NCBI RefSeq assembly: GCF_000576575.1
Contig: NZ_AWQS01000021.1
Span: forward strand, 1 to 34,680
Source: Intrasporangium chromatireducens Q5-1
GTDB lineage: Bacteria; Actinomycetota; Actinomycetes; Actinomycetales; Dermatophilaceae
Direction of reading: 5' to 3'
DNA length: 34,680 nt
The notes beneath the pieces are model-generated. The model was not told the origin of the DNA. It did no database searches and saw only the letters and a list, made by a program, of their open reading frames with translations. The translations under genes were made by a program, and so were the position numbers. Positions 5,221 through 31,036 of this stretch are shown here, piece after piece (positions within the stretch are counted from its first letter, which is position 1; every line of letters begins with the position of its first letter).

Positions 5221-5301
5221 GTGGCTCACCTCTTGACAGTGATGGGTAATGCCCACACGATAGCCGGTAATCGACTACCGGTCACGCAAAGGAGCGTCTG
5301 G
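5221..5301. promoter_or_regulatory. Divergent control region: TTGACA -35-like box and 18-base palindrome
   Basis: The region separates gntR (minus) from the DgcA/StcD-like gene (plus). A consensus TTGACA occurs at 5233-5238 with only a weak -10 about 18-19 bases later. The imperfect palindrome CCGGTAATCGACTACCGG (5264-5281) sits just downstream, where a bound GntR-type repressor would block transcription. A second small dyad, GGGTAATGCCC, lies at 5244-5254. AAAGGAG (5288-5294) is the ribosome site of the plus-strand gene. Confidence 0.5.
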
Positions 5302-7350: not shown

Positions 7351-7369
7351 CGACCGGACGGAGCCAGCC

Positions 7370-8320: not shown

Positions 8321-8332
8321 CCGACTCCGCAG

Positions 8333-8352
8333 GCCGGGGCAGCGACCCCGGC
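8333..8352 (+). terminator. GC-rich hairpin between the OCD gene and proV
   Basis: GCCGGGG (8333-8339) and CCCCGGC (8346-8352) form a perfect 7-pair stem with a 6-base loop, 13 bases after the OCD stop. No T-tract follows, so it may be a weak terminator or an mRNA processing/attenuation structure separating enzyme genes from the importer. Confidence 0.35.
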
Positions 8353-8390
8353 TCATCTCAGCCCCTCCCACACCCCCGAGGTGATTCGCC

Positions 8391-10449: not shown

Positions 10450-10507
10450 CCAGTCCGATCCCGTGCCAACCCGCTCCACGTCAGCCCGTCACCAAGGAGA
10501 GTCCCCC

Positions 10508-11410: not shown

Positions 11411-11477
11411 TCACCGCGCTCGCCCAGGACTGAGGCGCAGCGGCCACCCCACCGAACGAACAGGAAGGAAGACGGCG

Positions 11478-15640: not shown

Positions 15641-15676
15641 CCCCGACCTCTTCGCCGTCACGCGGAGAGGTCGGGG
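15641..15676. terminator. Bidirectional hairpin between convergent genes
   Basis: CCCCGACCTCT (15641-15651) and AGAGGTCGGGG (15666-15676) form a perfect 11-pair stem with a 14-base loop. It lies between the flavoprotein stop and the lysR 3' end, overlapping the last lysR codons. Position and symmetry suit termination of both transcripts. Confidence 0.75.
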
Positions 15677-16581: not shown

Positions 16582-16678
16582 GGCGCCCAGAGTATCGGCC
16601 GCAGCCATGCCCAGGCCGCCCCGACTCACGTGGTCAGCCGAGGGCGTGGGTGCCGGCACCGGCGGAGCGACGAGAGCG

Positions 16679-18628
16679 TCACGAGACGAGTTCCGACTGC
16701 CTGGCCGTGATGGTCGAGACGGCCTCCTTGGCGTCGGCGACAGCGTCCGTGGTCCGTCGCGGACGCAGGGCATCACCGATCAGGTGGCTGTTGCGGCCGG
16801 CGCCGGTCAAGGTCCCGTGCAGGTCGAGGACCGGCTCACCGCCGGACCACCACACGAGCGCGTCGGCCGGCACCCGCCGGGCCGGACCGCCGAAGACGCC
16901 GGCCAGGTGGACCTCGCCGTCGCGCACCGCGACGGGCCTGACCCGTTCGATCGTGGGCACTCCGGCGTCGCCCAAGGTGCGGAGCATCGGGTAGAGCGTG
17001 TTGATGCCTTCGCCCTCGCCCACGTGGAGCCGGGAGGTGGCGAGAACGACGGTCGTGCCGGCCGCGTGAAGGAACTCCGCGATGAGTGCACCGTCGAGCT
17101 GGCCGACCTCATCGAACACGAGGACGGTTCCAGTGGGTGGCTCGGAGAACGCCCGAATGGGGTCGACGAGGGCCACGGTGCCGTCGTCGTGCTGGAGCAC
17201 GAGCCCGGACGGGACGGCGCCTGTGGCCACGATGACGTCATCGGGCTCGAGGTGTTGCACGAGGTCGAGGTCGGCAGTCGTGCCCAGCCTGATGTCGACC
17301 CCCAGCTGGCGCAGCTGGCGCTCCTGCCAGGTGAGGAAGTCCCGCACCTCCAGCCGGCTGGGAGCGGCCGTCCAGCCGGCCATCTGCCCCCCGATGGCCG
17401 ACGCTCGATCGACCAGGGTGACCGCGCTGCCCCGCTCTGCCAGGCGGCGAGCCGCTTCGAGGCCGGCGGGGCCGGCGCCGACGACGACGGAGCGGTGGCC
17501 CTGGAGGTCGCGTGCCGCAGCCGCTCCCGGGTCGCCCGCATCGGGGTTGACCATGCAGGTCAGCGTGCGCCCGGCGAGCAGCCCGTTGGTGCAGACGTTG
17601 ACGCCGACGCACGGCCGCACGTCCGAGGCGCGGCCCGCCCGGGTCTTGATGATGAGGGCCGGGTCCGCGATGTGGCCCCGGACGATGCCGACCAGGTCGG
17701 CGTCACCGGCGGCCACGATGTCGTTGGCCAGCGAGAGGGTGGTGACCCGCCCCACCATGGCGACCGGCACGGAGACTGCCGCCTTGACGGTGCGAGCGAC
17801 GCCCCGGAAGAGACCCGGCTGTGCCGGCGTCGGCGGCCAGTGCCGCACCCGGGCCTCCAGCCGGTTGTTGTTGCCGACCATGACGCTGATGTAGTCCACA
17901 TCGGACTCGAAGGCCTGGGCGATCCGCGCGGCGTCGACGGGCGTGAGCCCGCCCTCGACGAGGTCGTCCGAACCGAGCCGGATGCCGAGGATCAGGTCCG
18001 GGCCGACCGCCTCGCGCACCGCTCGCAGCACTCGGCGGGGTAGCTCGAGACGACGCTCGAAGTCGCCACCGAACTCGTCGTCTCGGTGGTTCGTGAGGGG
18101 AGACAGGAACGCGGCGAGCAGCAACCCGTGCGCCATGCTGATCTCCACCCCGTCGAGGTCGCCCCGCCGGCACCGCTCCGCAGCCTCGGCGTATTGCTCG
18201 ACGACTCGGGCGAGCTGCTCGGCCGTGGCCGGCACCGCCACCTGTCGCGTCACCTCGGAGAAGACCCGGGAGGCCGAGATGACCTCGGGCCCCTCGAACT
18301 CGGTGGGGCCGGGATGGGCCAGCTGGGCGAGCATCGTGCCGCCCTCTTCGTGGACGGCCCGGGCGAGACGCCGGTAGCCGGGGACCACGCTGTCGTCGAT
18401 GTTCCAGAGGCAGATGTCGGACCACTCCACCGACGGCGCGACGGGGGTCGCGCCGGTGATCTGCATGGCCACCCCGGCGCGGGCTCGCTCGCGGTGGTAG
18501 GCGACATACCGGTCGCTCACCCGACCGCCCTCGGCGAGGCCGGGCTGGTGGGGTGGGAGGAAGACCCGCCCCCGGAGGCTTCGTGGACCGACCTGCAGAG
18601 GTTCGTCCAGCAGCCACTCGCTCATCAT
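16679..18628 (-). CDS. Second DgcA/StcD-like flavin oxidoreductase
   Basis: 649 residues, paralogous to the protein at 5302-7350 but clearly diverged. The FMN barrel contains HGLLLAAFLSPLTNHRDDEF. The iron-sulphur segment has Cys340, Cys346 and Cys358, with Val where the usual second Cys would be (CVGVNVC). The FAD/NAD part starts at VVVGAGPAGLEAARRLAERG. The start ATG at 18626-18628 overlaps the stop of the OCD-family gene (ATGA), with AAGGGA upstream, so they are translationally coupled. It sits in the operon with an amino acid importer rather than the betaine importer. It may act on an N-methylated or other cyclic amine; an imino acid dehydrogenase role is equally possible. Confidence 0.82.
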   Translation of the reverse strand: MMSEWLLDEPLQVGPRSLRGRVFLPPHQPGLAEGGRVSDRYVAYHRERARAGVAMQITGATPVAPSVEWSDICLWNIDDSVVPGYRRLARAVHEEGGTMLAQLAHPGPTEFEGPEVISASRVFSEVTRQVAVPATAEQLARVVEQYAEAAERCRRGDLDGVEISMAHGLLLAAFLSPLTNHRDDEFGGDFERRLELPRRVLRAVREAVGPDLILGIRLGSDDLVEGGLTPVDAARIAQAFESDVDYISVMVGNNNRLEARVRHWPPTPAQPGLFRGVARTVKAAVSVPVAMVGRVTTLSLANDIVAAGDADLVGIVRGHIADPALIIKTRAGRASDVRPCVGVNVCTNGLLAGRTLTCMVNPDAGDPGAAAARDLQGHRSVVVGAGPAGLEAARRLAERGSAVTLVDRASAIGGQMAGWTAAPSRLEVRDFLTWQERQLRQLGVDIRLGTTADLDLVQHLEPDDVIVATGAVPSGLVLQHDDGTVALVDPIRAFSEPPTGTVLVFDEVGQLDGALIAEFLHAAGTTVVLATSRLHVGEGEGINTLYPMLRTLGDAGVPTIERVRPVAVRDGEVHLAGVFGGPARRVPADALVWWSGGEPVLDLHGTLTGAGRNSHLIGDALRPRRTTDAVADAKEAVSTITARQSELVS

Positions 18629-19692
18629 CGAGTCCCTTCTGTCGGTTCGTGACCGTGCGACACCGCTCGGTGCGCTGCTCCATCGGTTGACCCCGTGGTG
18701 CCAGCAGGCCCCGGGGCGGCGAGGGAGATGCGGCTGATGCCGCTCGCGACCCGCCCGCTCTCGACGGCACGGAGGACCTCTCGCGCCGTGAAGTAGTCGA
18801 GGTGGCTGCCGCCACCGTTCTTCATCATGGTGATCGCCGCGGGACTGCTTCGGCCGGCCGAACCGGTGGCCAGGGCGGTGAGGTCACCGGCGATGTCTTC
18901 GAGGGAGAACACTCCGCGTGCACAGGGGTCGACGAAGTCGCCCGAATGCTCCGTCGCGCCGTAGGAGTCGACGAAGACCTCGGACCGGTGCAGCAGGGCA
19001 TCGTCCGCTTCTCGCATCTGTGGCGTGAACGAGCCGACGAGGTCCACATGGGTCCCGGGTCGCAGCAGGGCACCCTTGATGATCGGGTCGCTGGACATCG
19101 TGGCGGCGCTGACGATGTCGGCCGACCCGAGCGCGTCGTCCAGCTGGTCGACGACGAACGCGTCCACGCCCGTCGCGACAAGATCAGCGACGAGCGCTTC
19201 TGCCGAGACGAGGGTGCGGTTCCACACCCCGACGTGACGCAGGCCGGGTCGTGCCACGAGGTGGGCCCGGACCAGGTGGGGGGCCAGTGCCCCGGCGCCG
19301 ACCATGAGCAACGTCCTCGAGTCGGGCCGTGAGAGGAACCTGGATCCCAGTGCGGAGTCGGCCGCCGTCTTCCGGAAGATCAGCGCCTCGCCGTCCATCA
19401 GTGCGACGGGCACTCCGGTGCGCGGGTCGAACCAGACATAGAGGGAGTGCACGGTCGGCAGGCCGTGCTGCTCACGGTTGTTCGGGAAGGACGAGACGAG
19501 CTTCACGCCGAGGCCGTCCTCCGGCAGCCAGGCCGGCAGGCTCAGGAACGCCTGCCGGCCGGCTGCGGCCGGTTGTTCGAGCACCTGCCAGGCGTGGTCC
19601 GGCATCGGACCACGGTGCGCCTCCTCGAGTGCGTCCATGAGCAGCTCGATGTCCAGCGCCGCATGCACGGCGCTCGCCTCGATCAGGAGCAC
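18625..19692 (-). CDS. Ornithine cyclodeaminase/mu-crystallin family protein (second of three)
   Basis: 355 residues. The nucleotide-binding loop is LLMVGAGALAPHLVRAH (about 130-146). The substrate Lys lies in GLGVKLVSSFPNN and the Arg in LIFRKTAADSALG. The ornithine cyclodeaminase catalytic Asp position is Phe (VGSFTPQMREAD), the arrangement of mu-crystallin-type ketimine reductases. Likely activity is reduction of pyrroline- or piperideine-2-carboxylate, or the reverse amino acid dehydrogenation. A low-complexity tail of about 35 residues (from APGPAGTTGSTDG) follows the fold. GTG at 19690-19692 is the start, with AAGG upstream. It is cotranscribed with the transporter genes upstream and coupled to the flavoprotein downstream. 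Confidence 0.82.
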   Translation of the reverse strand: MLLIEASAVHAALDIELLMDALEEAHRGPMPDHAWQVLEQPAAAGRQAFLSLPAWLPEDGLGVKLVSSFPNNREQHGLPTVHSLYVWFDPRTGVPVALMDGEALIFRKTAADSALGSRFLSRPDSRTLLMVGAGALAPHLVRAHLVARPGLRHVGVWNRTLVSAEALVADLVATGVDAFVVDQLDDALGSADIVSAATMSSDPIIKGALLRPGTHVDLVGSFTPQMREADDALLHRSEVFVDSYGATEHSGDFVDPCARGVFSLEDIAGDLTALATGSAGRSSPAAITMMKNGGGSHLDYFTAREVLRAVESGRVASGISRISLAAPGPAGTTGSTDGAAHRAVSHGHEPTEGTR

Positions 19693-19719: not shown

Positions 19720-20559
19720 TCAGGAGATGAGGCGGGCTTCGCCGGTGTCGGCCGCCGAACCGTCGAGACCGTTCTTGACGAGGATCTCCTTGAGCTTGCC
19801 GTTGTCCCGGAGCGTCTTGAGGTCCTCGTTGATGGCCTTGAGCAGGTCAGCGTTGGCCGACGGGACCGGGAGGGAGGCCTGGGCAGCCTCCTGCGAGGCG
19901 GCAACGGCGGGGTCCGGCTTGGCCACCATGATCTTCATCGTCGGGTTGGTGACCTTCTGCGACCCGTAGGAGTCGACGGCGATGTCGATGCGCCCTGACT
20001 TGAGGTCCTGGTTCATGTTGACGGTCGAGGGGTAGATCCGCAGCGAGTCGCCGAGGTACTTCTTCAGGTCCTCGACCCAGAGGTAGCCATCGACCGTGCC
20101 GACCTTCTTGCCCTTGAGAGCAGCAACCGTCTCGACGCCGTCCTTGGAGGAGATGCCCATCTGGTCGACGTAGATCGGGTCACTCAGGCTCACGATCTTG
20201 GCTCGTGCCTGGGTGCGGTACCAGTCGCCGACGGCGAGGTCGGCGCGGTTGCTCTGGACGGTCGGGATCACGGCGGCGGGCGCCATCCACTTCGCCTCGA
20301 CGGTCAGGCACTCCATCTTGGCGATCTCGGCGACGATGTCGGGGTCGACTCCCGTGAGCTTGCCGCCGCTCTGGGCCGCGTACGGCGGCAGGTCGTAGCC
20401 GGCAACCGTCAGCTTTCCCTCCGTGACCGTCGAGAACTTGTGGGCGGGCTTGCAGTCCTTCGCGACGTCAGCAGAGGAGCCCTGGCTTCCGCAGGCGGAG
20501 AGGGGGAGCGCGGTGAGGATCGCGACTCCCACGATGGTGGCGCGTAGACGCATGAGCAT
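19720..20559 (-). CDS. Polar amino acid ABC transporter substrate-binding lipoprotein
   Basis: 279 residues of the family 3 solute-binding proteins (HisJ/GlnH type). The signal peptide begins MLMRLRATIVGVAILTALP and ends in lipobox LSAC (Cys near residue 23). The mature protein has KLTVAGYDLPPYA, LTGVDPDIVAEIAK, an ADLAVGDWYRTQAR strand and KGKKVGTVDGYLWVEDLKKY. AAAGG lies close to the first ATG and at better spacing (nine bases) to a second ATG two codons in. It binds an amino acid outside the cell for the permeases encoded just upstream. Ligand is unknown; an imino acid such as pipecolate or an N-methyl derivative is inferred from the operon. Confidence 0.9.
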   Translation of the reverse strand: MLMRLRATIVGVAILTALPLSACGSQGSSADVAKDCKPAHKFSTVTEGKLTVAGYDLPPYAAQSGGKLTGVDPDIVAEIAKMECLTVEAKWMAPAAVIPTVQSNRADLAVGDWYRTQARAKIVSLSDPIYVDQMGISSKDGVETVAALKGKKVGTVDGYLWVEDLKKYLGDSLRIYPSTVNMNQDLKSGRIDIAVDSYGSQKVTNPTMKIMVAKPDPAVAASQEAAQASLPVPSANADLLKAINEDLKTLRDNGKLKEILVKNGLDGSAADTGEARLIS

Positions 20560-20649
20560 GTGCCTTTCAGTCCGCCTCCGGCATCGGTGCCGGAGGTGCG
20601 ATGGGGTGCTGGGTGTGGTGGATCGACGGTGTGCGGAGGTCAGGTCCGG

Positions 20650-21306
20650 TCAGGCGAGGTGGCGGGACATCCGCCGCTCCACCCGGTCGGTCAGCAGGCT
20701 GGCGGGGATCGTCACGGCGGCATACATCAGGCCCGCCAGTGCGAGCACCGAGAGGTACTGGAAGGTGCTCGACCCGATGCTGTAGGCGCGTCCGAGCAGC
20801 TCCGGCAGGGCGATCGTGTAGGCGAGTGAGGTCGCCTGGAAGATCAGGACGCCGAACCCCATGAGGGGCGGGATCGCGACGCGGATCCCTTGTGGGATCA
20901 CGACGAAGCGCAGCGCGTCCGGTCGTGACATCCCGAGCGCCTCGGTCGCTTCCAGCTCTCCCCGGGGGACTGCCTGCAGGCCACCTCGGATGATCTCCGA
21001 CGTGTAGGCGGCGGTGGTGAGGGCGAGCGCGAGACAGGCCGCCATCGTGGACGACAGGGTCAGCCCTGCACTCGGCAGACCGAAGTAGAAGACCTGGAGG
21101 ACGACCAGTGCGGGTGCTCCTCGCCCGATCTCCACGACCGCGATGGCGGGCCATCGCAAGGCCCGGCTCCCCGCGCTCGACCCGAGGGCGAGGGCCAGCC
21201 CGAGCGGCAGCCCGACGACGATCGCGGCAAGGCAGACGACGACGCTGACCCACAGGCCCGACGCGAGCTGGGGCAGGAAGCCGAGCCAGTCCTGGAGCAC
21301 GGTCAT
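20650..21306 (-). CDS. Polar amino acid ABC transporter permease (second subunit)
   Basis: 218 residues of the HisMQ-type permease family with about five membrane segments. The N-terminal part shows VSVVVCLAAIVVGLPLGLAL and IGRGAPALVVLQVFYFG. The cytoplasmic EAA loop is GELEATEALGMSRPDALRFV and then VIPQGIRVAIPPL. The ATG at 21304-21306 is chosen because it overlaps the stop of the neighbouring permease gene (ATGA). Codons further upstream belong to that gene's region and lack a ribosome site. It forms a heterodimer with the other permease. Confidence 0.92.
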   Translation of the reverse strand: MTVLQDWLGFLPQLASGLWVSVVVCLAAIVVGLPLGLALALGSSAGSRALRWPAIAVVEIGRGAPALVVLQVFYFGLPSAGLTLSSTMAACLALALTTAAYTSEIIRGGLQAVPRGELEATEALGMSRPDALRFVVIPQGIRVAIPPLMGFGVLIFQATSLAYTIALPELLGRAYSIGSSTFQYLSVLALAGLMYAAVTIPASLLTDRVERRMSRHLA

Positions 21307-21941
21307 GACGCGATCCTCACGCGGAGGCGGCGATCGACCGAGCGGGCGAACCACGCGCAGGGCACGGTGAGGATGATGTAGGCTGCGGCCGCCACGAGGT
21401 AGGGCGTCAAGGCATCCGAGGACTGCTTCGCCTGGCTGTCGGCGAAGAAGAGGATCTCCTGGGCGCCGATGGTGAAGGCGATCGAGGTGTCCTTGAGCAG
21501 GCCGATCGCGTAGGTGGCCGCAGCCGGGATGGAGTAGCGCATGACCTGGGGGCCGATGATCCGGGCGAGCTGGTCACCGTGGCTGAGGCCCAGCGCGACG
21601 CCTGCCTCCCATTGCCCCCGGTGCACGGCCGACAGGCCGCCGCGGTAGATCTCGGCAAGGTACGCGCACGAGATGAGCCCGAACGCGACGATGGCGGCCG
21701 GCACCGGCTCCACCTTGATCAGGCCGTTGCCGATGCCGAAGTAGACGAGGAAGATCCACACGATCGGCGGGATGCCGCGCAACAGCTCGATGATCGAGCG
21801 GCTGATGAACCGCACCGAGCGGAGCCGCGACCTTCGCATGAGTGCGAGCGGGATGCCGCCCACGGCGCCGATGGCGAAGCCGAGCACCGTCAGGAGCAGC
21901 GACATCGGTATGCCGCTCGCAATCGGCCCGACGTAGTCCAT
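21303..21941 (-). CDS. Polar amino acid ABC transporter permease (first subunit)
   Basis: 212 residues, HisMQ type, with a clear hydrophobic N-terminal segment (GIPMSLLLTVLGFAIGAVGG) followed by IELLRGIPPIVWIFLVYFG. Its EAA loop reads RGQWEAGVALGLSHGDQLAR and then IIGPQVMRYSIPA. The start ATG lies one base beyond the stop of the ATPase gene, and the end overlaps the next permease gene by four bases. Transport direction is inward, as set by the binding-protein-dependent family. A copy of GTATGCCGCT falls inside this gene at 21908-21917, where it encodes Ser-Gly-Ile using the rare ATA codon. Confidence 0.92.
   Translation of the reverse strand: MDYVGPIASGIPMSLLLTVLGFAIGAVGGIPLALMRRSRLRSVRFISRSIIELLRGIPPIVWIFLVYFGIGNGLIKVEPVPAAIVAFGLISCAYLAEIYRGGLSAVHRGQWEAGVALGLSHGDQLARIIGPQVMRYSIPAAATYAIGLLKDTSIAFTIGAQEILFFADSQAKQSSDALTPYLVAAAAYIILTVPCAWFARSVDRRLRVRIAS
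21908..21917 (+). repeat. Copy of the over-represented 10-mer GTATGCCGCT (within permease gene)
   Basis: In the coding strand it reads AGCGGCATAC and specifies Ser-Gly-Ile with an ATA isoleucine codon, which is rare in high-GC genes. Confidence 0.55.
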
Positions 21942-21942
21942 G

Positions 21943-22731
21943 TCAGCGCTCCAGCACCGCGCGCAGGAACCGACGGGTCCGATCCGTGGCGGGATCCGTG
22001 AAGATCTTCTCCGGCTGGCCTTCCTCGAGGACGGTGCCGTGCCCCATGACGATGAGGTGGTCGGAGACGTCGCGAGCGAACTGCATCTCGTGCGTCACGA
22101 CGATCATGGTCATGCCCTCGTCGGCCAGCTCGCGCATCACGGCGAGCACCTCCAGACCGAGCTCCGGGTCGAGCGCGGAGGTGGGCTCGTCGAAGAGCAT
22201 CACCTTGGGGTCGAGGGCGAGGGCGCGGGCAATGGCGACGCGCTGTTGCTGGCCGCCACTGCAGCGTGACGGGTACTGGGCAGGCTTGTCACCCAAGCCG
22301 ACTCGCTGCAGCAGCTCCATCGCCCGGTCCTCCGCCTCCGCGCGGCTGCGCCCGAGGACCCGCTCCTGCGGCAGCGCGATGTTGCGCAGCACCGTCAGGT
22401 GGGGAAAGAGGTTGAACGACTGGAAGACCATGCCGACCTGCCGACGCAGGCCGTGCAGCTGCTTGCCCCCGACCTCCTGGCCGGCATCGATCGTCGTGTC
22501 GCCGACGCGGATGGTGCCGCTGTCGGGACGCTCGAGCAGGTTGATGCAGCGCAGCAGGGTCGACTTGCCGGCACCGCTCGGGCCGATGATCGCGCAGACC
22601 TCGCCCTCGCGGACCGACAGGGAGACGTCATCGAGGACGACGTGCTCTCCGTACGCCTTGACGATGTGCTCGAGGCTGACGTCCATGCCAGTGGACTTCG
22701 CCGCGGCGGGATCAGTGACAGGCTGGGCCAC
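21943..22731 (-). CDS. Polar amino acid ABC transporter ATP-binding protein
   Basis: 262 residues of the GlnQ/HisP type. Visible are Walker [17 protein letters not shown]-loop [14 protein letters not shown], signature [17 protein letters not shown] (Cys replaces the usual Leu before SGG), Walker [21 protein letters not shown] and [12 protein letters not shown] at 22729-22731 is preceded by AAAGGAGGTG at six bases, one of the strongest ribosome sites in the window. That rejects an in-frame start 153 bases upstream. It energises the adjacent permeases. The 149 bases between it and the OCD-family gene hold only this ribosome site and no other clear structure. Confidence 0.93.
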
Positions 22732-22880
22732 GGTGCCCACCTCCTTTCGTCCGGGAAACCCGAGGTGCCGCAACCTTGCCCGAGCCGCGGCGTCGTTGTG
22801 TACCTCTCTGAGCCCCACCGATCCGAGGGGTAGGCCCACCGTCTCTGTGGCTGTCGCCCCGGCTGCTCCTCGTGACGGCG

Positions 22881-23876
22881 TCACAGCTCGATGGCCTTGC
22901 CGAGCCCGTGCTCTCGGGCACGGCGCACGAGGAGCGTTGCTGCTGCGGCGTCCTGCACGCCCACGCCGACGCTGTTGTAGTAGACGATCCCGTCGTCGGT
23001 GCGCCGACCCGGCTGCTGGCCCGTCACGACGGCACCGAGCTCGACCACCGCACCGAGATCGAGCACGCCGTCCGCCACCGCCTGCACGACCGGCCCGGCG
23101 TGCTCACCGGCCACCTCTCGGTGGTCGACGACGACGGACTCGGCGGCGAGCACGGTGTCCCGGGGGACCTCGCACCGTCCTGCCGCATAGGAACCGACGC
23201 TGATCACGGTGGCCCCGGGGGCCAGGTCGGCGTGGTCGAAGACCGGCGACTGCGACGTCGTCGCCGTGACGACGACGTGGGCCCCGCTGAGGGCCTCCTG
23301 GGCGGTGGCGACGGCCCGGACGTCGAGGTCGAGCTCGTCCCTCAGCCTGCCGGCCATCGCTTCGGCGGAGGGCCGGGTGCGGCCGACGAGACGCACCTGC
23401 CGAAGCGGCAGGACATGACGCATGAGCCGGACGTGTGCCTCTGCCTGGACACCCGAACCGACGATGGCAAGGACGGACGAGCCGGGCGCGGCGAGGTGCT
23501 CGGCCGCGACCGCGCTGGCCGCCGACGTCCGGATGGTGGTGACGGAGGTGCCGTCGACGAGGGCTGCCGGGATCCCGGTGTCGGGGTCGAGGACCACGAT
23601 CACTGCGGAGATGCTCGGCAGCCCGCGGTCGACGTTGCCCGGCACGACGCCGCCGAACTTGCAGACAGCCCCGCTGGTCGCATCCACCTGGGCGGCGTAG
23701 CAGAACGTGCTCGTGTTGTCGGGTCCCTCCATGAGGATGCGGCCCGGCTGCTGGGCCTGTCCCAGGCCGAGGGCCCGGAACGCGTGCCGCTGCGACTCGA
23801 GGGCGGTCGCCTCGTCCAACAGCTGACGGACATCCTGCTCGGACAGGGCAAGCAGACCCGGTTGGGAACCACGCAT
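22881..23876 (-). CDS. Ornithine cyclodeaminase/mu-crystallin family protein (third of three)
   Basis: 331 residues, first gene of the minus-strand transporter operon. The dinucleotide loop is [17 protein letters not shown]. The substrate Lys is in [12 protein letters not shown] and the Arg in [16 protein letters not shown]. At the ornithine cyclodeaminase Asp position it has Tyr ([12 protein letters not shown]), so cyclodeaminase activity is doubtful. It is most likely an imine reductase or amino acid dehydrogenase for a cyclic substrate such as 1-piperideine-2-carboxylate. The ATG at 23874-23876 follows GAGG by five bases; an in-frame start 105 bases upstream is less likely. It is divergent from the amino acid dehydrogenase gene at 24083. 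Confidence 0.84.
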
Positions 23877-24082
23877 CGTGACCTCGTTGTCGGTTGGCGC
23901 TGACGTCGTCGCCAATCTGCCTGCGGTGGCGGTCTGCTCACCACCTCTGGAGGACCAGTGTTGCTGGGGCAGACCCAACAACTTGGCGCTCTCAGGAACT
24001 GGTGGACGCCGCTGCCGATGTCACATCGTTTCCCTGTCGGAGCTGTCCCGAGGGGACACGACCACATCGAAGTGAGGTAGCT
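23877..24082. promoter_or_regulatory. Divergent control region with two inverted repeats
   Basis: 206 bases between the minus-strand OCD-importer operon and the plus-strand dehydrogenase operon, more AT-rich than its flanks. GTTGCTGGG (23960-23968) and CCCAACAAC (23974-23982) form an 8-of-9 inverted repeat with a 5-base spacer. TGTCCC/GGGACA (24044-24058, 3-base spacer) is perfect and ends 24 bases before the GTG. Both are operator candidates; no confident -35/-10 pair was found. Confidence 0.45.
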
Positions 24083-25261
24083 GTGCCAGACACTGACGTC
24101 TTTGACCTGATGGATGCCTGGGGTCCGGAGCGGGTCGTCTGCGTCTCCGACCGGCGGACGGGGATGCGCGGAGTCCTCGTGCTGGACAACACCGCACGCG
24201 GCACCGGCAAGGGCGGCACCCGGATGAGCGCGAACCTGACGGTTCGCGAGGTGGCCCGGCTCGCTCGCACCATGACATGGAAGTGGGCCGCAGTGGACCT
24301 CTTCCATGGCGGCGCCAAGGCGGGGATCCTCGGTGACCCCAACGCGCCGAACAAGGAGGAGATCCTGCGCGCGTTCGCCCGGGCCCTGGCCGACCAGGTG
24401 CCCGAGCACTACGTCTTCGGCCTCGACATGGGGATGGCGGAGTCAGATGCCGCCATCTTCGTGGACGAGCTGCGCAGCCGCGGCGTGTCGACGGGGCTGC
24501 CCCGCTGTCTCGGCGGCACGCCGTACGACCAGCTCGGTGTGACCGGGTTTGGGGTGGCGGAGGCCGTGGACGCGGCGACGCGTCACCTCGGGGGCGAGCT
24601 GACCGGCAGCCGGGTCGTCATCCAGGGCTTCGGTGCCGTCGGAGCCCATGCGGCCCGCCGCCTCGTCGAACTGGGCGCCACCGTGGTCGGTGTCTCGAAC
24701 GCCGAGGGCACGGTGAGCGACCCCGACGGTCTCGACGTCGAGCGGCTCCTGACGCTGCGCGCGGAGGCCGGCGACAGCGGCATACGCGACTACGGCCTGC
24801 GACTCGCCCCCGTGGACGACGCCCTCCTGCTCGACTGCGACGTCCTCGTGCCGGCCGCGCGCCAGGACGTCATCGACCGTGACCTCGCCGGGCGCCTCAG
24901 CGCCCGGCTCGTCGTGGAGGGGGCGAACCTGCCGACGAGCCCCGAGGCCCGGGAGGTGCTGCACGCCCGCGGCGTCGCCGTGGTGCCCGACTTCATCGCC
25001 AACGCCGGGGGCATCATCGCGGCGGCCTACTCCATGGACGCACGCAACTCCGCCTTCACGGTGGACGAGTCGCGCATCTTCGACATGGTCTCGGCGAAGC
25101 TGCGGCCCAACGCCGTCGCCGTGCTCGAGGACAGCGTCCGTCGCCAGTGCACGACCTACGACGCCGCGCTCGCGATGGCCCAGGACCGGGTCCGGGAGGC
25201 GATGCGCATGCGTGGACAGCTGCGCCGGGACGGGCAGGCAGTGAGGAGACTGTCGGCATGA
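24083..25261 (+). CDS. Glu/Leu/Phe/Val-type amino acid dehydrogenase
   Basis: 392 residues. The dimerisation/catalytic domain has RGTGKGGTRMSANLTVREVA, then MTWKWAAVDLFHGGAKAGI with the conserved lysines, followed by FGLDMGMAESD. The NAD(P) domain begins near residue 180 with RVVIQGFGAVGAHAARRL; VEGANLPTSPEAREVL and PDFIANAGGIIAAAYSM are standard for the family. It removes the amino group of an L-amino acid, giving a 2-oxoacid. GTG at 24083 has GAGG at five bases. The stop overlaps the ATG of the 2-oxoacid dehydrogenase gene (ATGA), so product hand-over is likely. Glutamate is possible. Given the antiquitin-family gene downstream, 2-aminoadipate is an attractive alternative; branched-chain amino acids remain open. 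Confidence 0.85.
   Translation: MPDTDVFDLMDAWGPERVVCVSDRRTGMRGVLVLDNTARGTGKGGTRMSANLTVREVARLARTMTWKWAAVDLFHGGAKAGILGDPNAPNKEEILRAFARALADQVPEHYVFGLDMGMAESDAAIFVDELRSRGVSTGLPRCLGGTPYDQLGVTGFGVAEAVDAATRHLGGELTGSRVVIQGFGAVGAHAARRLVELGATVVGVSNAEGTVSDPDGLDVERLLTLRAEAGDSGIRDYGLRLAPVDDALLLDCDVLVPAARQDVIDRDLAGRLSARLVVEGANLPTSPEAREVLHARGVAVVPDFIANAGGIIAAAYSMDARNSAFTVDESRIFDMVSAKLRPNAVAVLEDSVRRQCTTYDAALAMAQDRVREAMRMRGQLRRDGQAVRRLSA
24776..24785 (-). repeat. Copy of the over-represented 10-mer GTATGCCGCT (within dehydrogenase gene)
   Basis: The minus-strand copy reads AGCGGCATAC on the coding strand, again giving Ser-Gly-Ile with the rare ATA codon. Confidence 0.55.
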
Positions 25262-27528
25262 GCGGGCCGATCGACGAGCACTTCCTGCAAGAGGTGCGCA
25301 GCTGGACCGGTCACCTGACCGGTCACACGGCCGACCCCGGGACCGTCACCGACTCAGGGACCGCCGCGGAGCCGGGGGACACCGCCCGGACGGGGGTCTC
25401 CGACGCGCTCCTGCTCGACCTCTTCGAGGCGCAGCTGCTCTCGCGCCACCTCGACTTCGCGGCACGCTACCTGCAGGCGCAGGGGGAGGGGTTCTACACG
25501 ATCGGTTCGAGCGGGCACGAGTCCAACGCCGCGGTGGCTCTGGCCCTGCGGCCGAGCGATCCCGCCCTGCTGCACTACCGATCCGGCGGGTTCTACTGTG
25601 CCCGGGCCGGCCAGGTGCCCGGCAGCGACGCTGCGGCGGACATCCTGCGCAGCCTGACGTGCTCGGTCGACGACCCGATCTCCGGCGGCCGGCACAAGGT
25701 GTTCGGCCACCCCGAGCTGATGGTGATCCCGCAGACCTCGACGATCGCCTCGCACGTGCCGCGGGCGCTCGGGATGGCTTTTGCGCTCGACCGGCGAGGC
25801 CCCCTCGGTGTCGCCACCCCCGTCCCGGGCGACGCCGTCGTGGTGACCAGTCTCGGGGACGCGTCGGTCAACCACTCCACCGCGATCGGCGCCCTCAACG
25901 CGGCCGGGCAGCTCGCCCACCGCGGCGTGCCGTTGCCGCTGCTGGTCCTGTGCGAGGACAACGGCATCGGCATCAGCGTCCGCACGCCGAGCGGGTGGAC
26001 CCGACGCACCTTGGAGTCGCTGCCCGGCTTCGACTACGTCGCGGCGGACGGCACCGACCCCGAGCAGTGCCTCGCCGTGGCCGCCGAGGCGGTCGAGCGG
26101 GTCCGGACCGAGCGCAAGCCGGTGATCCTGCACCTGTCGACGGTCCGACTCATGGGGCACGCCGGCTCGGACGTCGAGCTGGCCTACCGGAGCCGCCGCG
26201 AGATCGAGCGCGACTATGCCGCTGACCCCCTCGTCGCCACGGCGCGCGCCCTCCACGCACGCCGGGTGCAGACCACGGACGAGCTCGTCGAGCGCTACGA
26301 GCAGGTCCGCAGGCAGGTCGAGGAGCGCGCCAAGCGGCTCATGCCCGTCCGGCGCCTCGACTCCGCGGAGGCCGTGATGCGGCCGCTCACCGAGCGCAGT
26401 CCCGCACAGGTCCGTGCCGCGTCCGCTGCGTCCGCGCCCGCCGCCGGCCGGGAGGCGGCCTTCGGTGGGAAGCTGCCGGAGGACTCCGGCCCGCTCACGC
26501 TGGCCCAGTCGATCAACGCCGCCCTGACCGACCTGATGGCCCTGCACCGCGAGGTCGTCGTCTTCGGCGAGGACGTCGCTGCCAAGGGCGGTGTCTACGG
26601 GGTGACCCGCGGGCTGCGCAAGCGCTTCGGTGCCCAACGGGTCTTCGACACCCTGCTCGACGAGCAGACCATCCTCGGCACCGCCCTCGGCTCGGCGCTC
26701 GCCGGGTTCCTTCCCGTGCCGGAGATCCAGTACCTCGCCTACCTGCACAACGCCGAGGACCAGCTGCGCGGGGAGGCGGCCACGCTCCGGTTCTTCTCCA
26801 ACGGCCAGTTCGGCAACGGCATGCTCGTGCGGGTCCAGGGGCTCGCCTACCAGAAGGGTTTCGGCGGGCACTACCACAACGACAACTCCGTGGCCGTGCT
26901 CCGGGACATCCCCGGGCTCGTCCTGGCCACCCCGTCGAGTGCCGCGGAGGCCCCGCGCCTCGTCCGCGCCATGGCCGCCTTCGCCCGCGAGGAGAGCCGG
27001 GTCTGCGTGCTCCTCGAGCCCATCGCGCTCTACCACACGCGCGACCTCGCTCCCGGGGACGGAGCGTGGACAGCGCCATACGCGCCCCCCGAGACATGGG
27101 GCCACGACCGCGCGGAGCCCGGCGTCGGCGCGACCCACGGCGAGGGCGGCGACGTGCTCGTCGTGACCTTCGGCAACGGCGTCCCGATGAGCCTCCGAGC
27201 GGTCGCCGCGGCCGAGGAGCGGGCCGCCCGCCATGGCCGATCGGCTCCGCGCACCACGGTCTACGACCTGCGCTGGCTCGCCCCGCTGCCGGTCGACGAC
27301 CTGCTTCAGCGAGCCCGCGGATTCGACCGGGTCCTCGTCGTCGACGAGACGCGCCGCAGCGGAGGCGTCTCCGAGGGCGTCGTCACGGCCCTCGTCGACG
27401 GCGGTTACCGGGGCGCGATTTCACGAGTCACGAGCAAGGACAGCATCATTCCTCTCGGTCCCGCAGCGAGCACGGTGCTCCTGTCTGAGGAGGACATCAT
27501 CGACGCCCTGCTAGGAGGGACCCTGTGA
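25258..27528 (+). CDS. Fused alpha-beta 2-oxoacid dehydrogenase E1 component (thiamine diphosphate-dependent)
   Basis: 756 residues joining both E1 chains of the branched-chain/pyruvate type. The alpha part (about 40-400) has FYTIGSSGHESNAA, HYRSGGFYCARAG and the thiamine diphosphate motif GDASVNHSTAIGALN (about residue 198) ending at LCEDNGIGIS. After an Ala-rich linker (~390-410) the beta part begins LTLAQSINAALTDLM, with VVVFGEDVAAKGGVYGVTRG and LDEQTILGTALG. The N-terminal 45 residues are a Thr/Gly/Asp-rich extension with a short DNA repeat (25306-25326). Translation is coupled to the dehydrogenase (ATGA) and to the flavoprotein (GTGA). No E2 or E3 gene is present, so a shared cellular acyltransferase is needed. 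2-Oxoadipate is the substrate suggested by context; a branched-chain oxoacid is the classical one. Confidence 0.87.
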   Translation: MSGPIDEHFLQEVRSWTGHLTGHTADPGTVTDSGTAAEPGDTARTGVSDALLLDLFEAQLLSRHLDFAARYLQAQGEGFYTIGSSGHESNAAVALALRPSDPALLHYRSGGFYCARAGQVPGSDAAADILRSLTCSVDDPISGGRHKVFGHPELMVIPQTSTIASHVPRALGMAFALDRRGPLGVATPVPGDAVVVTSLGDASVNHSTAIGALNAAGQLAHRGVPLPLLVLCEDNGIGISVRTPSGWTRRTLESLPGFDYVAADGTDPEQCLAVAAEAVERVRTERKPVILHLSTVRLMGHAGSDVELAYRSRREIERDYAADPLVATARALHARRVQTTDELVERYEQVRRQVEERAKRLMPVRRLDSAEAVMRPLTERSPAQVRAASAASAPAAGREAAFGGKLPEDSGPLTLAQSINAALTDLMALHREVVVFGEDVAAKGGVYGVTRGLRKRFGAQRVFDTLLDEQTILGTALGSALAGFLPVPEIQYLAYLHNAEDQLRGEAATLRFFSNGQFGNGMLVRVQGLAYQKGFGGHYHNDNSVAVLRDIPGLVLATPSSAAEAPRLVRAMAAFAREESRVCVLLEPIALYHTRDLAPGDGAWTAPYAPPETWGHDRAEPGVGATHGEGGDVLVVTFGNGVPMSLRAVAAAEERAARHGRSAPRTTVYDLRWLAPLPVDDLLQRARGFDRVLVVDETRRSGGVSEGVVTALVDGGYRGAISRVTSKDSIIPLGPAASTVLLSEEDIIDALLGGTL

Positions 27529-28682
27529 GCACGCGACTTCCCAGCCGCGCGGACGTCGTCGTCATCGGCGGTGGCGTGATCGGCCTCAGCACCGCCTACA
27601 ACCTCGCCAGAAGCGGCGCAGGCAGCGTCCTGCTGCTCGACCAGGGCTCGTTCGGGGCCGGGTCGACGTGCAAGGCGGCCGGCGGCGTGCGGGCCTCGTT
27701 CAGCGACGAGGCCAACATCGTCATGGGCAACTACGGCCTCGACGTCTTCGAGCGGTTCGACGAGCTGTTCGACCAAGAGATCGACCTCGTCCAGAACGGC
27801 TACCTCTTCCTGCTCGACGACCCGGCCGACGTGGCGGACTTCGAGCGGAGCGTCGCGCTGCAGCAGTCGCTCGGCGTGGACGCCCGCATGATCGACCCGG
27901 CGGAGGCGAAGCGGCTCGCCCCGATCATCAGCACCGACGGGGTCCTCGCCGCCGCCTACGCCCCTCGGGACGGACACTGCACGCCCGAGTCGGTCGTTCT
28001 GGGCTACGCGCGCGCTGCCCGCCGGGCCGGGGCCACCCTCGTCCCGAACTGTCGGGTGACCGGCGGCGTCGTCGTCGACGGGACGATCCGCGCCGTCGAG
28101 ACGGAGGCGGGAACGGTCGAGACCGGGACGGTGGTCTGCTGTGCCGGCGCGTGGTCCCGCACCGTCGGCGAGTGGTTCGGGGTCGACCTGCCGGTCGACC
28201 CGGTCCGGCGCCAGATCGTCGTCACCGAGCCCATCGCGGACCTGAACCGCACCATGCCGATGACGATCGACTTCTCGACGACCTTCTACTTCCACGAGGA
28301 GGGCCCGGGCATGCTCGTCGGCATGTCCGACCGCAACGAGACGCCGGGCTTCAAGCTGAGCCGGGGCGACGAGTGGCTGCCCGGCCTGGCCGAGGCCATC
28401 GAGCGCCGCGCCCCCTCGCTCGGCGAGGTCGGGATCGCGAGTGGCTGGGCAGGCCTATACGAGGTCACCCCGGACCACAACGGCCTGATCGGCGAGGCGC
28501 CCGACGTGAGCCGATTCCTCTACGCGACCGGGTTCTCCGGGCACGGCTTCCTGCTCGGCCCGGCGATGGGTGAGGTGATGTGCTCGCTCTGGCGCGGCGA
28601 GGCGCCGTTCGTCGACGTGTCGGCGTTCGACGCGCGACGGTTCGAGCATGCCGTGCTCCACCACGAGAAGAACATCGTCTGA
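27525..28682 (+). CDS. FAD-dependent oxidoreductase (DAO; SoxB/pipecolate-oxidase-like)
   Basis: 385 residues. FAD binding is shown by DVVVIGGGVIGLSTAYNLAR near residues 10-29 and GSTCKAAGGVRASFSDEANI after it. The C-terminal GWAGLYEVTPDHNGLIGEAP and ATGFSGHGFLLGPAMGEVM are strong hallmarks of sarcosine oxidase beta, proline dehydrogenase beta and related imino acid oxidases. It starts with GTG overlapping the E1 stop (GTGA). Next to the antiquitin-family dehydrogenase it could oxidise L-pipecolate to 1-piperideine-6-carboxylate (the AmaA/PIPOX reaction); N-methylpipecolate or sarcosine are alternatives. Partner subunits of heteromeric enzymes are not encoded here. Confidence 0.84.
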   Translation: MSTRLPSRADVVVIGGGVIGLSTAYNLARSGAGSVLLLDQGSFGAGSTCKAAGGVRASFSDEANIVMGNYGLDVFERFDELFDQEIDLVQNGYLFLLDDPADVADFERSVALQQSLGVDARMIDPAEAKRLAPIISTDGVLAAAYAPRDGHCTPESVVLGYARAARRAGATLVPNCRVTGGVVVDGTIRAVETEAGTVETGTVVCCAGAWSRTVGEWFGVDLPVDPVRRQIVVTEPIADLNRTMPMTIDFSTTFYFHEEGPGMLVGMSDRNETPGFKLSRGDEWLPGLAEAIERRAPSLGEVGIASGWAGLYEVTPDHNGLIGEAPDVSRFLYATGFSGHGFLLGPAMGEVMCSLWRGEAPFVDVSAFDARRFEHAVLHHEKNIV

Positions 28683-28769
28683 CTGACCACGACGCGAGAC
28701 GGTCACCGCGCTACCCGCGGCGCACGACGTGCCAGCAGCAGTACCGAGCATCATGACGAAGGAGTCCCC

Positions 28770-30341
28770 ATGACGAGCAGCACCCCCACCCAGGACCGGA
28801 TCGAGACGACCAGCGCCACCCTGCCGGCAGCCGAGGAGCTGCGCCGCAGGGCCGCCGAGGCGGCCGGTCGCTGTGGCGTGGACCTCGACGCCGTGGCCGG
28901 TGACCGCGAGGGGACGTCCCCGGTCAACGGCGCGACGGTCTCGTCCCTGCGCTGGGCGCAGGTGTCGGAGGTCGACGAGGCGGTGGCCCGCGCCCACGCC
29001 GCCTTCAAGGAGTGGCGTCTCGTGCCGGCTCCGGTGCGCGGGGCAGTCGTCAAGCGGCTGGGCGAGCTGCTGACCCAGCACAAGGAGGACCTGGCCACCC
29101 TGATCAGCATCGAGGTCGGCAAGATCACCTCGGAGGCGCGTGGCGAGGTGCAGGAGATGATCGACATCTGCGACTACGCCGTCGGGCTCTCCCGGCAGCT
29201 GTTCGGGCGCACGATGACGTCCGAGCGTCCCGGGCACCGGCTCATGGAGACCTGGCACCCGCTCGGGGTCGTCGGAGTGATCTCCGCGTTCAACTTCCCG
29301 GTCGCGGTCTGGTCGTGGAACACCGCCGTCGCGCTGGTCTGTGGCGACACCGTCATCTGGAAGCCGTCCGAGACGGCACCGCTCTGTGCGCTCGCCGCCA
29401 ACGCGCTGCTGCAGCGGGCCCTCAGCGAGGCGGGCTATTCCACCGACGTGTCGCAGGTCGTCATCGGCGGGGCGGAGGTCGGCGAGGCGCTCGTCGACAA
29501 CCGGCGCGTGGCCCTCGTCAGCGCGACCGGCTCGACGCGGATGGGCCGCGCGGTCGGGCCGCGCCTCGCCGAGCGCTTCGGGCGCAGCCTGCTCGAGCTG
29601 GGCGGCAACAACGCGGCGATCGTCGCTCCGAGCGCCGACCTCGACCTCACGACCCGGGGCATCGTCTTCGCCGCTGCCGGCACGGCGGGGCAGCGGTGCA
29701 CGACCATGCGCCGGGTCATCGCGCACGAGTCGGTCATCGACAGCGTCGTGGAGCGGGTCGCGGCCGCTTACGAGAAGCTGCCGATCGGCGACCCCATGTC
29801 GGACGGGACCCTCGTCGGCCCGCTCGTGAACGAGCGGGCGTATGAGGCCTACGCGGCCGCGATCGAGAAGGCCCAGGCGGCCGGGGGCGAGGTCGTCGCC
29901 GGCGGCGACCGTGTCTTGGCCGATGCGGCGCCCGACGCGTTCTACGTCCGGCCCACCGTCATCCGGATGCCGGAGCAGACCGAGGTCGTCCACCAGGAGA
30001 CGTTCGCACCGATCCTCTATGTCATGCCCTACACGACGTTCGCCGAGGCGATCGAGCTGAACAACGAAGTCCCGCAAGGACTCTCGTCGAGCGTCTTCAC
30101 CAGCGACCAGGTCGAGGCGGAGCTGTTCATGTCTGCGGGCGGCTCCGACTGCGGCATCGTCAACGTCAACATCGGCACGTCGGGCGCGGAGATCGGCGGC
30201 GCCTTCGGTGGCGAGAAGGAGACCGGAGGCGGACGCGAGTCGGGCTCGGACGCCTGGCGGGCCTACATGCGCCGCGCGACGAACACCATCAACTACTCCG
30301 GTGAGCTGCCCCTCGCGCAGGGCGTCACCTTCGACGTCTGA
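28770..30341 (+). CDS. amaB: Antiquitin-family (ALDH7) aldehyde dehydrogenase, probable 2-aminoadipate semialdehyde/P6C dehydrogenase
   Basis: 523 residues. The catalytic Cys lies in GTAGQRCTTMRRVI and the Glu in LLELGGNNAAIV. The nucleotide fold has SAFNFPVAVWSWNTAVAL and WKPSETAPL. The C-terminal block GGAFGGEKETGGGRESGSDA, followed by WRAYMRRATNTINYS, is almost invariant in ALDH7/antiquitin and distinguishes it from betaine aldehyde or succinate semialdehyde dehydrogenases. The family oxidises 2-aminoadipate 6-semialdehyde, the open form of 1-piperideine-6-carboxylate, to 2-aminoadipate with NAD+. This is the clearest pointer to lysine/pipecolate metabolism in the window. GAAGGAG lies five bases before the ATG. 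A ~30-residue N-terminal extension is unassigned. An 87-base gap separates it from the flavoprotein gene. Confidence 0.9.
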   Translation: MTSSTPTQDRIETTSATLPAAEELRRRAAEAAGRCGVDLDAVAGDREGTSPVNGATVSSLRWAQVSEVDEAVARAHAAFKEWRLVPAPVRGAVVKRLGELLTQHKEDLATLISIEVGKITSEARGEVQEMIDICDYAVGLSRQLFGRTMTSERPGHRLMETWHPLGVVGVISAFNFPVAVWSWNTAVALVCGDTVIWKPSETAPLCALAANALLQRALSEAGYSTDVSQVVIGGAEVGEALVDNRRVALVSATGSTRMGRAVGPRLAERFGRSLLELGGNNAAIVAPSADLDLTTRGIVFAAAGTAGQRCTTMRRVIAHESVIDSVVERVAAAYEKLPIGDPMSDGTLVGPLVNERAYEAYAAAIEKAQAAGGEVVAGGDRVLADAAPDAFYVRPTVIRMPEQTEVVHQETFAPILYVMPYTTFAEAIELNNEVPQGLSSSVFTSDQVEAELFMSAGGSDCGIVNVNIGTSGAEIGGAFGGEKETGGGRESGSDAWRAYMRRATNTINYSGELPLAQGVTFDV

Positions 30342-30352
30342 GGGGGCCTGCC

Positions 30353-30952
30353 GTGAAGATCCTCCATGTCGGGGCGTCGGGCACGGTCGGTGAGGCCGTG
30401 GGTCGTGCCTTGCGTGCGCGCGGGCACGACGTCGTCGCGGCCCACCGCACCTCTGGGACCCACCCGGTCGACATCACCGACCCCGGGTCGATCAGCGAGC
30501 TGCTCGCGGGCCTGAGCGGGCTCGACGCGATCGTCTCCACGGCCGGAGGGACGCCCTTCGGCCCGTGGGACGAGCTCGGCCGCGACGAGTGGCGGGCAGG
30601 CTTGGACAACAAGCTGCTCGGCCAGATCGAGCTGGTGCGGCAGGGGTCCGCCGTGGTCCGCCCCGGCGGCTCGTTCACCCTCATCACCGGCATCACGGCG
30701 CGAGAGCCGGTGCCCGAGGCGAGCATCGCGGCGGCCGTCAACGGGGCCCTCGAGTCGTGGGTGCGCACCAGCGCCGCGGAGCTGTGGGGCCGGTTCCGCA
30801 TCAACGCCGTCAGCCCGACGGTGCTGACCGAGTCCCGGGAGCACTACGCCTCGGTGTTCCCCGGCTTCCCCTTCGTCGACGGCGACCGGGTCGGCGACGC
30901 CTACGTCCGCTCCGTGGAGTCGATGGACACCGGCGCCGTATACGTCCTCTGA
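30353..30952 (+). CDS. Atypical short-chain dehydrogenase-like protein
   Basis: 199 residues with an SDR fold. The N-terminal nucleotide loop is ILHVGASGTVGEAVGRAL, followed by VDITDPGSI and the NAG-like STAGGTPFG. The active-site region is unusual. Where the family has Tyr-x3-Lys, this protein reads ASIAAAVNGALESW, so alignment puts Ala at Tyr and Asn at Lys. RINAVSPTVLTES after it is normal. It starts with GTG 11 bases after the aldehyde dehydrogenase stop, so it is the last gene of that operon. It is either a reductase with a changed mechanism or a non-catalytic nucleotide-binding protein. Substrate unknown. Confidence 0.8.
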   Translation: MKILHVGASGTVGEAVGRALRARGHDVVAAHRTSGTHPVDITDPGSISELLAGLSGLDAIVSTAGGTPFGPWDELGRDEWRAGLDNKLLGQIELVRQGSAVVRPGGSFTLITGITAREPVPEASIAAAVNGALESWVRTSAAELWGRFRINAVSPTVLTESREHYASVFPGFPFVDGDRVGDAYVRSVESMDTGAVYVL

Positions 30953-31001: not shown

Positions 31002-31036
31002 CTCAGCGGCATACGGTCATTCCGTATGCCGCTGGG
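31002..31036. terminator. Long intergenic hairpin built from two inverted GTATGCCGCT copies
   Basis: CTCAGCGGCATACGG (31002-31016) and CCGTATGCCGCTGGG (31022-31036) pair over 15 positions with a single G-T wobble and a 5-base loop (TCATT). It lies 49 bases after the SDR stop and 24 bases before the treT-like start. It is the strongest hairpin in the window and probably ends the 24083-30952 operon. Its arms carry the repeated 10-mer, so it may also be a dispersed palindromic element. Confidence 0.7.

Follow-up and report, generated by a model that had tools for sequence, protein, structure and literature searches.

A fused alpha/beta-type E1 as the probable 2-oxoadipate dehydrogenase component of a lysine/pipecolate gene module in Intrasporangium chromatireducens

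The window analysed here, a 34,680-nucleotide stretch representing contig 21 of the 660-contig, 4.8 Mb draft genome of Intrasporangium chromatireducens Q5-1, carries five plus-strand genes arranged head to tail at 24083-30952, which encode an amino acid dehydrogenase (AADH), a fused 2-oxoacid dehydrogenase E1 component, a DAO-family FAD oxidoreductase (DAO), an ALDH7-family aldehyde dehydrogenase (ALDH7) and a short-chain dehydrogenase/reductase (SDR). The first four probably constitute the lower, 2-aminoadipate branch of lysine/pipecolate catabolism, with the fused E1 acting at the 2-oxoadipate step. This protein most likely serves these bacteria as their 2-oxoadipate dehydrogenase E1, an assignment that draws on its association with genes for lysine 6-transaminase (LAT) and glutaryl-CoA dehydrogenase (GcdH), its near-exclusion with the dioxygenase HglS, and the residues of the neighboring AADH. 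The pathway is already known, and what the sequences point to as new is the enzyme class used for the 2-oxoadipate step. Bacteria were thought to convert 2-oxoadipate to glutaryl-CoA with quite different enzymes, and the system described here probably represents a third, unrecognised bacterial solution: a dehydrogenase built on the plan of the pyruvate (PDH) and branched-chain 2-oxoacid (BCKDH) dehydrogenases, present in Actinomycetota and Pseudomonadota, working with a borrowed E2 and replacing HglS in many lineages that lack it.

Organization of the module and proposed pathway

The genes for AADH (24083..25261), the fused E1 (25258..27528) and DAO (27525..28682) overlap successively by 4 bases, while gaps of 87 and 11 bp separate DAO from ALDH7 (28770..30341) and ALDH7 from SDR (30353..30952), respectively. 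The order AADH-E1-DAO-ALDH7 recurs in G305, a genome of the same family as the source genome (G000), indicating that the grouping is more than chance. The module is genuine, and close relatives retain it in a four-gene form. The initial annotation had described a five-gene module; all five genes are indeed present, yet SDR, which scores 223.8 bits against NF005754 (cut-off 167), had no relative among the 80 named E1 loci searched at E 1e-15, some of which are truncated at a contig end. SDR was rejected as a module member on this ground and is probably a passenger.

The same annotation had taken the antiquitin-family ALDH to imply 2-aminoadipate semialdehyde, and this assignment stands: ALDH7 scores 812.6 bits in an NCBIfam scan against the curated model for L-piperidine-6-carboxylate dehydrogenase (NF050084, cut-off 730), which places it with Pcd/AmaB, and 775 bits against the Pcd structure 6RTR. 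DAO had been called pipecolate-oxidase-like, a description that holds by analogy only. It belongs to PF01266 (244 bits), its best match in the Protein Data Bank (PDB) is 1y56_B (220 bits), and its best NCBIfam scores are to soxB-like and glycine-oxidase-like models, every one below cut-off; it falls outside the AmaA L-pipecolate oxidase model NF050086, with 69.3 bits against a cut-off of 600. Among the 80 named loci, 10 have a DAO relative next to Pcd or the LAT-linked ALDH, and by analogy the protein may still function like an L-pipecolate oxidase or dehydrogenase. A plasmid search with DAO, aimed at the Phaeobacter pipecolate-oxidase candidate named in the available text of PMC5653290, returned matches of 31-39% identity only, with no Phaeobacter record among the 40 matches listed.

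Gene order, family membership, the ALDH7 assignment, the neighbors and the patterns of co-occurrence are read directly from the sequences. On this basis, pipecolate would be imported by the adjacent ABC transporter or formed from piperideine-2-carboxylate (P2C) via an ornithine cyclodeaminase (OCD)-family ketimine reductase. DAO would convert pipecolate to L-piperidine-6-carboxylate (P6C)/2-aminoadipate semialdehyde, ALDH7 would yield 2-aminoadipate, and AADH would deaminate the latter to 2-oxoadipate. The fused E1 would then decarboxylate 2-oxoadipate and load the glutaryl group onto a lipoyl arm belonging to an E2 encoded at another site, and the resulting glutaryl-CoA would be consumed by the GcdH encoded at G000:C282. 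Apart from the ALDH7 substrate, which follows from the curated model, we infer all substrates, the partner E2 and the direction in which the pathway runs. The C282 gene product matches the GcdH of locus L057 at 70% and lies next to a CaiB-type CoA-transferase gene (identified by eye), and no HglS was found in the source genome. E2 genes occur at three sites of this genome: at C165 together with E1a and E1b, at C241 beside a gene resembling dihydrolipoamide dehydrogenase (by eye), and as part of a KGD-like gene at C77, where E1_dh and 2-oxoacid_dh domains share one 1395-aa frame. The copies at C165, beside E1a/E1b, and C241, beside the E3-like gene, are the candidate partners.

Family and fold of the fused E1

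The fused E1 is a single 756-aa chain with PF00676 (E1_dh), PF02779 (Transket_pyr) and PF02780 (Transketolase_C) domains in the order alpha then beta; unlike PDH/BCKDH-kind E1 enzymes with separate alpha and beta chains, it occupies one open frame. A predicted AlphaFold model built from 38 sequences (pLDDT 88, pTM 0.89) resembles human BCKDH alpha in its alpha half (Z 34.5, 22% identity) and the beta subunits of PDH and BCKDH in its beta half (Z 33.3 and 31.8). Since both halves match in this way, the fused protein is, on the predicted structure, a single-chain E1 of the alpha/beta type. Alignment with mycobacterial KGD covers most of its length at Z 28.4 and 15% identity, and no model for an E1 of the 2-oxoglutarate dehydrogenase (OGDH) type is among the seven NCBIfam matches of the protein at E 0.001.

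The accessible portion of PMC12655727 gives F85, M87, Y113, M146 and L164 of the alpha chain as side-chain residues of the hydrophobic substrate pocket of human BCKDH. Aligned by eye and without coordinates, these correspond to Y80, I82, Y107, H146 or K147, and I163 of the fused E1; when the alpha half was profile-aligned with actinobacterial E1a, the substrate loop lost definition and the counterpart of M146 was not fixed. R145, H146 and K147 are invariant in all 38 E1 sequences, as are H106 and H497. The E1 match falls in two pieces within one open frame at G361 C1:5827220-5829682 and G031 C86:18020-20389, as if the alpha-beta linker were longer there. A scan of viral contigs returned no relative.

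Gene neighborhoods of the fused E1

Of the 394 class genomes searched at E 1e-60, 63 contain an orthologue of the fused E1, representing 31 of 138 genera. The neighborhoods of all 63 were examined over mostly 19-20 kb, some being cut by contig ends, and the window itself served for the source genome. A second collection comprised the best 80 of at least 570 confirmed E1 matches (the named loci), in which genes were called with a simple script and ten representatives were scanned with family models; loci L057, L098, L086 and L141 supplied queries and thus match themselves in the 80-locus counts.

At least one pathway gene lies near the E1 gene in 33 of the 63 class loci and 25 of the 80 named loci. 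Within the class loci, GcdH and a LAT-linked ALDH each occur in 27 and LAT in 26, whereas Pcd, AADH and DAO occur in 3 each; LAT, the LAT-linked ALDH and GcdH are found together in 22 loci, 21 of which belong to a single family, f27. Outside f27, four families contribute 6 loci with GcdH and three families contribute 5 with LAT. In the most compact arrangements, G211 has a tight LAT-ALDH-E1-GcdH run with genes touching or overlapping, and G305 has AADH-E1-DAO-Pcd-GcdH in one run, with an OCD gene and an ABC transporter across a divergent promoter region from the module. Locus L056 (Amycolatopsis sp. GM8) combines Pcd, AADH, E1, an acyl-CoA dehydrogenase gene that overlaps E1 by 4 bases, and L-lysine 6-transaminase. 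Both LAT copies that were scanned exceed the TIGR03251 cut-off of 520.8 (685 bits, and 697 bits for the L056 copy). The acyl-CoA dehydrogenases of the representative loci are below every NCBIfam cut-off; the L057 GcdH scores 648 bits against the PDB glutaryl-CoA dehydrogenase 3SF6 and 376 against the human enzyme 1SIQ. LAT, ALDH and E1 are also present in two Streptomyces loci (L098 and L112) and in L068, L073 and L124. Locus L086 contains DAO, Pcd, a kinase-like gene (by eye), an aminotransferase matching part of PRK06148 (below cut-off) and E1, a set that may represent a hydroxylysine route. In Mobilicoccus caccae (L048, 13425-15120), Pcd is seemingly cut after about 169 codons by insertion-sequence-like genes (by eye), and a search of that genome at E 1e-80 gave no Pcd match.

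The association extends beyond the class. A plasmid search with the fused E1 returned five records, four of which, from Ruegeria (two), Shewanella aestuarii and Legionella adelaidensis, carry homologues of 45-50% identity over 91-96% of the chain, annotated as 'alpha-ketoacid dehydrogenase subunit alpha/beta' or 'thiamine pyrophosphate-dependent'; the fifth is a Nonomuraea record in which the region is unannotated. An acyl-CoA dehydrogenase gene directly adjoins the E1 homologue in all four proteobacterial records. The three acyl-CoA dehydrogenases compared (one from Ruegeria and those from Shewanella and Legionella) share 47-50% identity with the L057 GcdH and contain RSxxSVQSSL, resembling RSLVSVQGSL of that protein. 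Because these homologues adjoin GcdH-like genes, the pairing of E1 and GcdH appears to span two phyla. No Pcd, LAT or DAO is annotated within 9 kb of them. A gene annotated as ACP S-malonyltransferase overlaps the E1 gene in Ruegeria and Shewanella (L202, 11055-12092; L204, 11235-12308).

Co-occurrence with aldehyde dehydrogenases and HglS

Across the 394 class genomes, Pcd (threshold E 1e-130) was detected in 76, the LAT-linked ALDH in 94 and HglS (PF07063) in 33. A P6C-dehydrogenase-type ALDH is present in 60 of the 63 E1 genomes (Pcd in 16, the LAT-linked ALDH in 44), and of the three with neither, one is 72% complete; the association between E1 and these ALDHs has a Fisher p of 1.2e-21, relatedness being ignored. 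Pcd and the LAT-linked ALDH never occur together in this sample, as if mutually replacing. One genome of the named set (G440, locus L091) seems to hold both, with matches of 66% and 40%.

HglS, located no more than 2 kb from Pcd in 29 of its 33 genomes, is absent from all 63 E1 genomes of the class sample. The chance of zero overlap is 3.8e-5 among Pcd genomes, and 8.9e-6 and 1.5e-8 with stratification by genus and family, respectively. The 12 Pcd genomes of genus g45 divide into 8 that have HglS and 4 that have the fused E1, with none having both or neither. Of the first 50 among the 80 named E1 genomes, which served as a second set, 28 have Pcd matches of E 1e-130 or better, a count that covers Pcd only.

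Residues of the amino acid dehydrogenase

AADH contains PF00208 (ELFV_dehydrog, 188 bits) and PF02812 (72 bits) domains, consistent with a Glu/Leu/Phe/Val-type dehydrogenase, and its best PDB matches are glutamate dehydrogenases (GDHs). In GDHs, a Lys binds the side-chain carboxylate, and a Ser380-type residue provides a second contact. At the Lys position, all five aligned AADH sequences (AADH and four orthologues) have Lys, within a GKGGTR motif, versus Leu in all three leucine-type comparators, which are enzymes encoded beside Rhodococcus bkd genes. The Ser380 position, just after NAGG, is Ala in the five AADH sequences and Ser in the source genome's own GDH. These residues fit a dicarboxylic amino acid, perhaps one longer than glutamate, in keeping with a putative 2-aminoadipate dehydrogenase. 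A plasmid search with AADH gave two matches, at 42-44%, in Burkholderia and Photobacterium.

Contrary evidence and alternative explanations

Several observations weigh against assigning the fused E1 to 2-oxoadipate. No pathway gene lies nearby in 30 of the 63 class loci or in 55 of the 80 named loci, and f27 by itself supplies 21 loci each for GcdH and LAT. The LAT-linked ALDH scores 347 and 358 bits against NF050084, below the cut-off of 730, so that its role is read from its neighbors. At the search thresholds applied, none of the 63 class loci has an E2 gene accompanying E1, so that a complex is assumed. HglS is present in 3 of the 50 named E1 genomes (L056, L074 and L075), including the Amycolatopsis genome with one of the most complete E1 clusters, and the exclusion is therefore a tendency rather than a rule; the resulting rate of 6% is near the 8% of the whole class sample and is exceeded by that in class genomes that lack E1 but have either ALDH (32 of 110). 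GcdH was detected in 36 of 47 tested E1 genomes, with 11 lacking it and 16 further E1 genomes outside the test, and it fails to separate E1 genomes from HglS genomes (20 of 33; p 0.14). The pocket mapping hinges on a one-residue gap placed without coordinates. In addition, at three Rhodococcus loci (L063, L070 and L085; about 6.3-12.1 kb), the fused E1 lies directly behind branched-chain E1a-E1b-E2 genes, an adjacency that may reveal its partner E2 or argue for a branched-chain role. The first interpretation was adopted because the remaining evidence points to lysine.

Some of these observations would also suit a fused E1 that acts on 2-oxoadipate outside a dehydrogenase complex, with either KGD-like release of glutarate semialdehyde or hydrolysis of the product to glutarate. 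The lack of a neighboring E2 gene and the 11 genomes without GcdH are compatible with this scheme. So is genus g45, where all four E1 genomes lack GcdH and a gene with a metallo-beta-lactamase (MBL)-hydrolase motif (by eye) abuts the E1 gene in the two cleanly called loci (L158, 10777-11508; L160, 7880-8611). Nevertheless, gcdH lies near E1 in 27 of the 63 loci, sometimes overlapping it, and the proteobacterial homologues have GcdH-like neighbors, an arrangement that calls for glutaryl-CoA; both halves of the protein, moreover, match complex-forming E1 alpha and beta subunits. Action outside a complex thus appears unlikely.

A branched-chain or general 2-oxoacid E1 accompanied by a branched-chain amino acid dehydrogenase is very improbable. 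BCKDH and PDH are the nearest folds, and the three Rhodococcus loci with bkd genes also have a leucine-dehydrogenase-like gene upstream. However, the source genome has a separate E1a/E1b/E2 set at C165, AADH has Lys where leucine-type enzymes have Leu, and we know of no role of LAT, Pcd or GcdH in branched-chain breakdown; the reading was rejected on the separate set, the AADH Lys and the lysine-pathway neighbors. That OdhA/KGD handles 2-oxoadipate while the fused E1 serves some other function within this regulon is hardly credible: a KGD-like gene is present at C77, but KGD is to our knowledge near-universal in these bacteria and so would account neither for the linkage between E1 and the LAT, Pcd and gcdH genes nor for the near-exclusion of E1 and HglS, and OdhA acting alone was rejected for leaving both unexplained. 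In its favor, passages of PMC10415282 mention post-decarboxylation intermediates from 2-oxoadipate.

The assignment of the fused E1 to the 2-oxoadipate step of the four-gene branch is thus preferred. The sequence from P6C through 2-aminoadipate and 2-oxoadipate to glutaryl-CoA with a fused E1, as put forward in the initial annotation, gains support from the LAT/GcdH neighborhoods, the near-exclusion with HglS and the AADH residues, with one family dominating the neighbor counts.

Flanking genes and upstream supply

An OCD/mu-crystallin family gene whose start is not fixed (22881..23900, minus strand) is divergent from the module, and a relative adjoins the module in L048 and L138. It is followed on the same strand by an amino-acid ABC transporter (19720..22884; substrate-binding protein, two permeases and ATPase), relatives of which lie near the module in L048, L138 and L064; by an OCD-family gene (18625..19692) whose product comes near the model for P2C/pyrroline-2-carboxylate (Pyr2C) ketimine reductase, with 305 bits against a cut-off of 322; by a gene for an old yellow enzyme (OYE)-type protein (16679..18628), a relative of which (65%) adjoins the ABC transporter in L064; and by a LysR-type regulator gene named by eye (15658..16776), a relative of which (57%) lies near the module in L048. 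A hairpin with a 13-bp stem 3' of SDR (31004..31034, detected on the minus strand) is a possible terminator, albeit a weak one, as two terminator-like sites were found against 1.3 expected in shuffled sequences. A promoter scan gave no result.

Further upstream, a betaine island (5221-13873) contains an OYE-type enzyme, an OCD gene, ProV-type transporter genes and a Rieske pair resembling GbcA/GbcB. The window has two OYE-type enzymes and three OCD-family genes in all. Its Rieske oxygenase and reductase score 407 and 306 bits against GbcA and GbcB, both below cut-off, the ProV-type ATPase neighboring the transport genes exceeds its cut-off, and a proline-dehydrogenase-like gene at 488-1414 reaches 225 bits, below cut-off. 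These genes fit betaine demethylation, most simply of proline betaine. Homostachydrine (pipecolate betaine), which had been suggested as a natural substrate, is a weak possibility drawn from the gene neighborhood; the sole support from outside the window comes from L064, where the DAO, Pcd and E1 genes lie behind an OYE relative and the same ABC transporter. The part of the homostachydrine literature surveyed comprised metabolite and disease papers, and no comparable gene cluster appeared among the titles surveyed on stachydrine/Rieske systems and proline betaine.

Significance and comparison with known systems

If correct, this assignment identifies the gene that acts on 2-oxoadipate in actinomycetes lacking HglS but able to form 2-aminoadipate from lysine or pipecolate, and database entries labelled 'thiamine pyrophosphate-dependent enzyme' gain a testable function. 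It would also mean that an alpha/beta-type E1 handles an acidic 2-oxoacid, for which we know of no described activity in that class. No literature assigning an alpha/beta-type E1 to 2-oxoadipate was found in the titles, abstract openings and passages surveyed, subscription papers being mostly outside the search.

The D-lysine/pipecolate branch of Pseudomonas putida (AmaA, AmaB/Pcd and HglS) shares with the proposed pathway a pipecolate-type oxidase, a P6C dehydrogenase and the intermediates 2-aminoadipate and 2-oxoadipate. There, HglS turns 2-oxoadipate into D-2-hydroxyglutarate, as stated in the available text of PMC7286885, whereas the source genome has the fused E1 in place of HglS and a DAO outside the AmaA model. 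The actinobacterial LAT/Pcd route makes 2-aminoadipate from lysine and is treated as antibiotic precursor supply in several papers, including the accessible part of PMC8967036; with LAT near the fused E1 in 26 of the 63 loci, the latter would supply the step after 2-oxoadipate. Lysine breakdown in Phaeobacter involves pipecolate and 2-aminoadipate according to passages of PMC5653290, and a portion of PMC7645780 reports that Agrobacterium resting cells form biotin from lysine, 2-oxoadipate or glutarate, glutarate being converted to glutaryl-CoA. The fused proteins of Ruegeria, Shewanella and Legionella share the GcdH-like neighbor, to which Ruegeria and Shewanella add the ACP S-malonyltransferase-like gene.

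Branched-chain E1 (alpha2beta2) has the same fold in both halves (Z about 31-34) and differs from the fused E1 in its separate chains; the fused protein has polar or basic residues at some pocket positions (by-eye mapping) and lysine-pathway neighbors. Human DHTKD1, which is of the OGDH kind, forms the complex that catalyzes the same reaction as that proposed for the fused E1, the latter being a PDH/BCKDH-type alpha and beta fusion. As described in the sections of PMC10415282 available, the DHTKD1 complex shares subunits with the 2-oxoglutarate complex, and actinobacterial OdhA uses a borrowed E2p lipoyl arm, providing a precedent for the shared E2 with which the fused E1 would operate.

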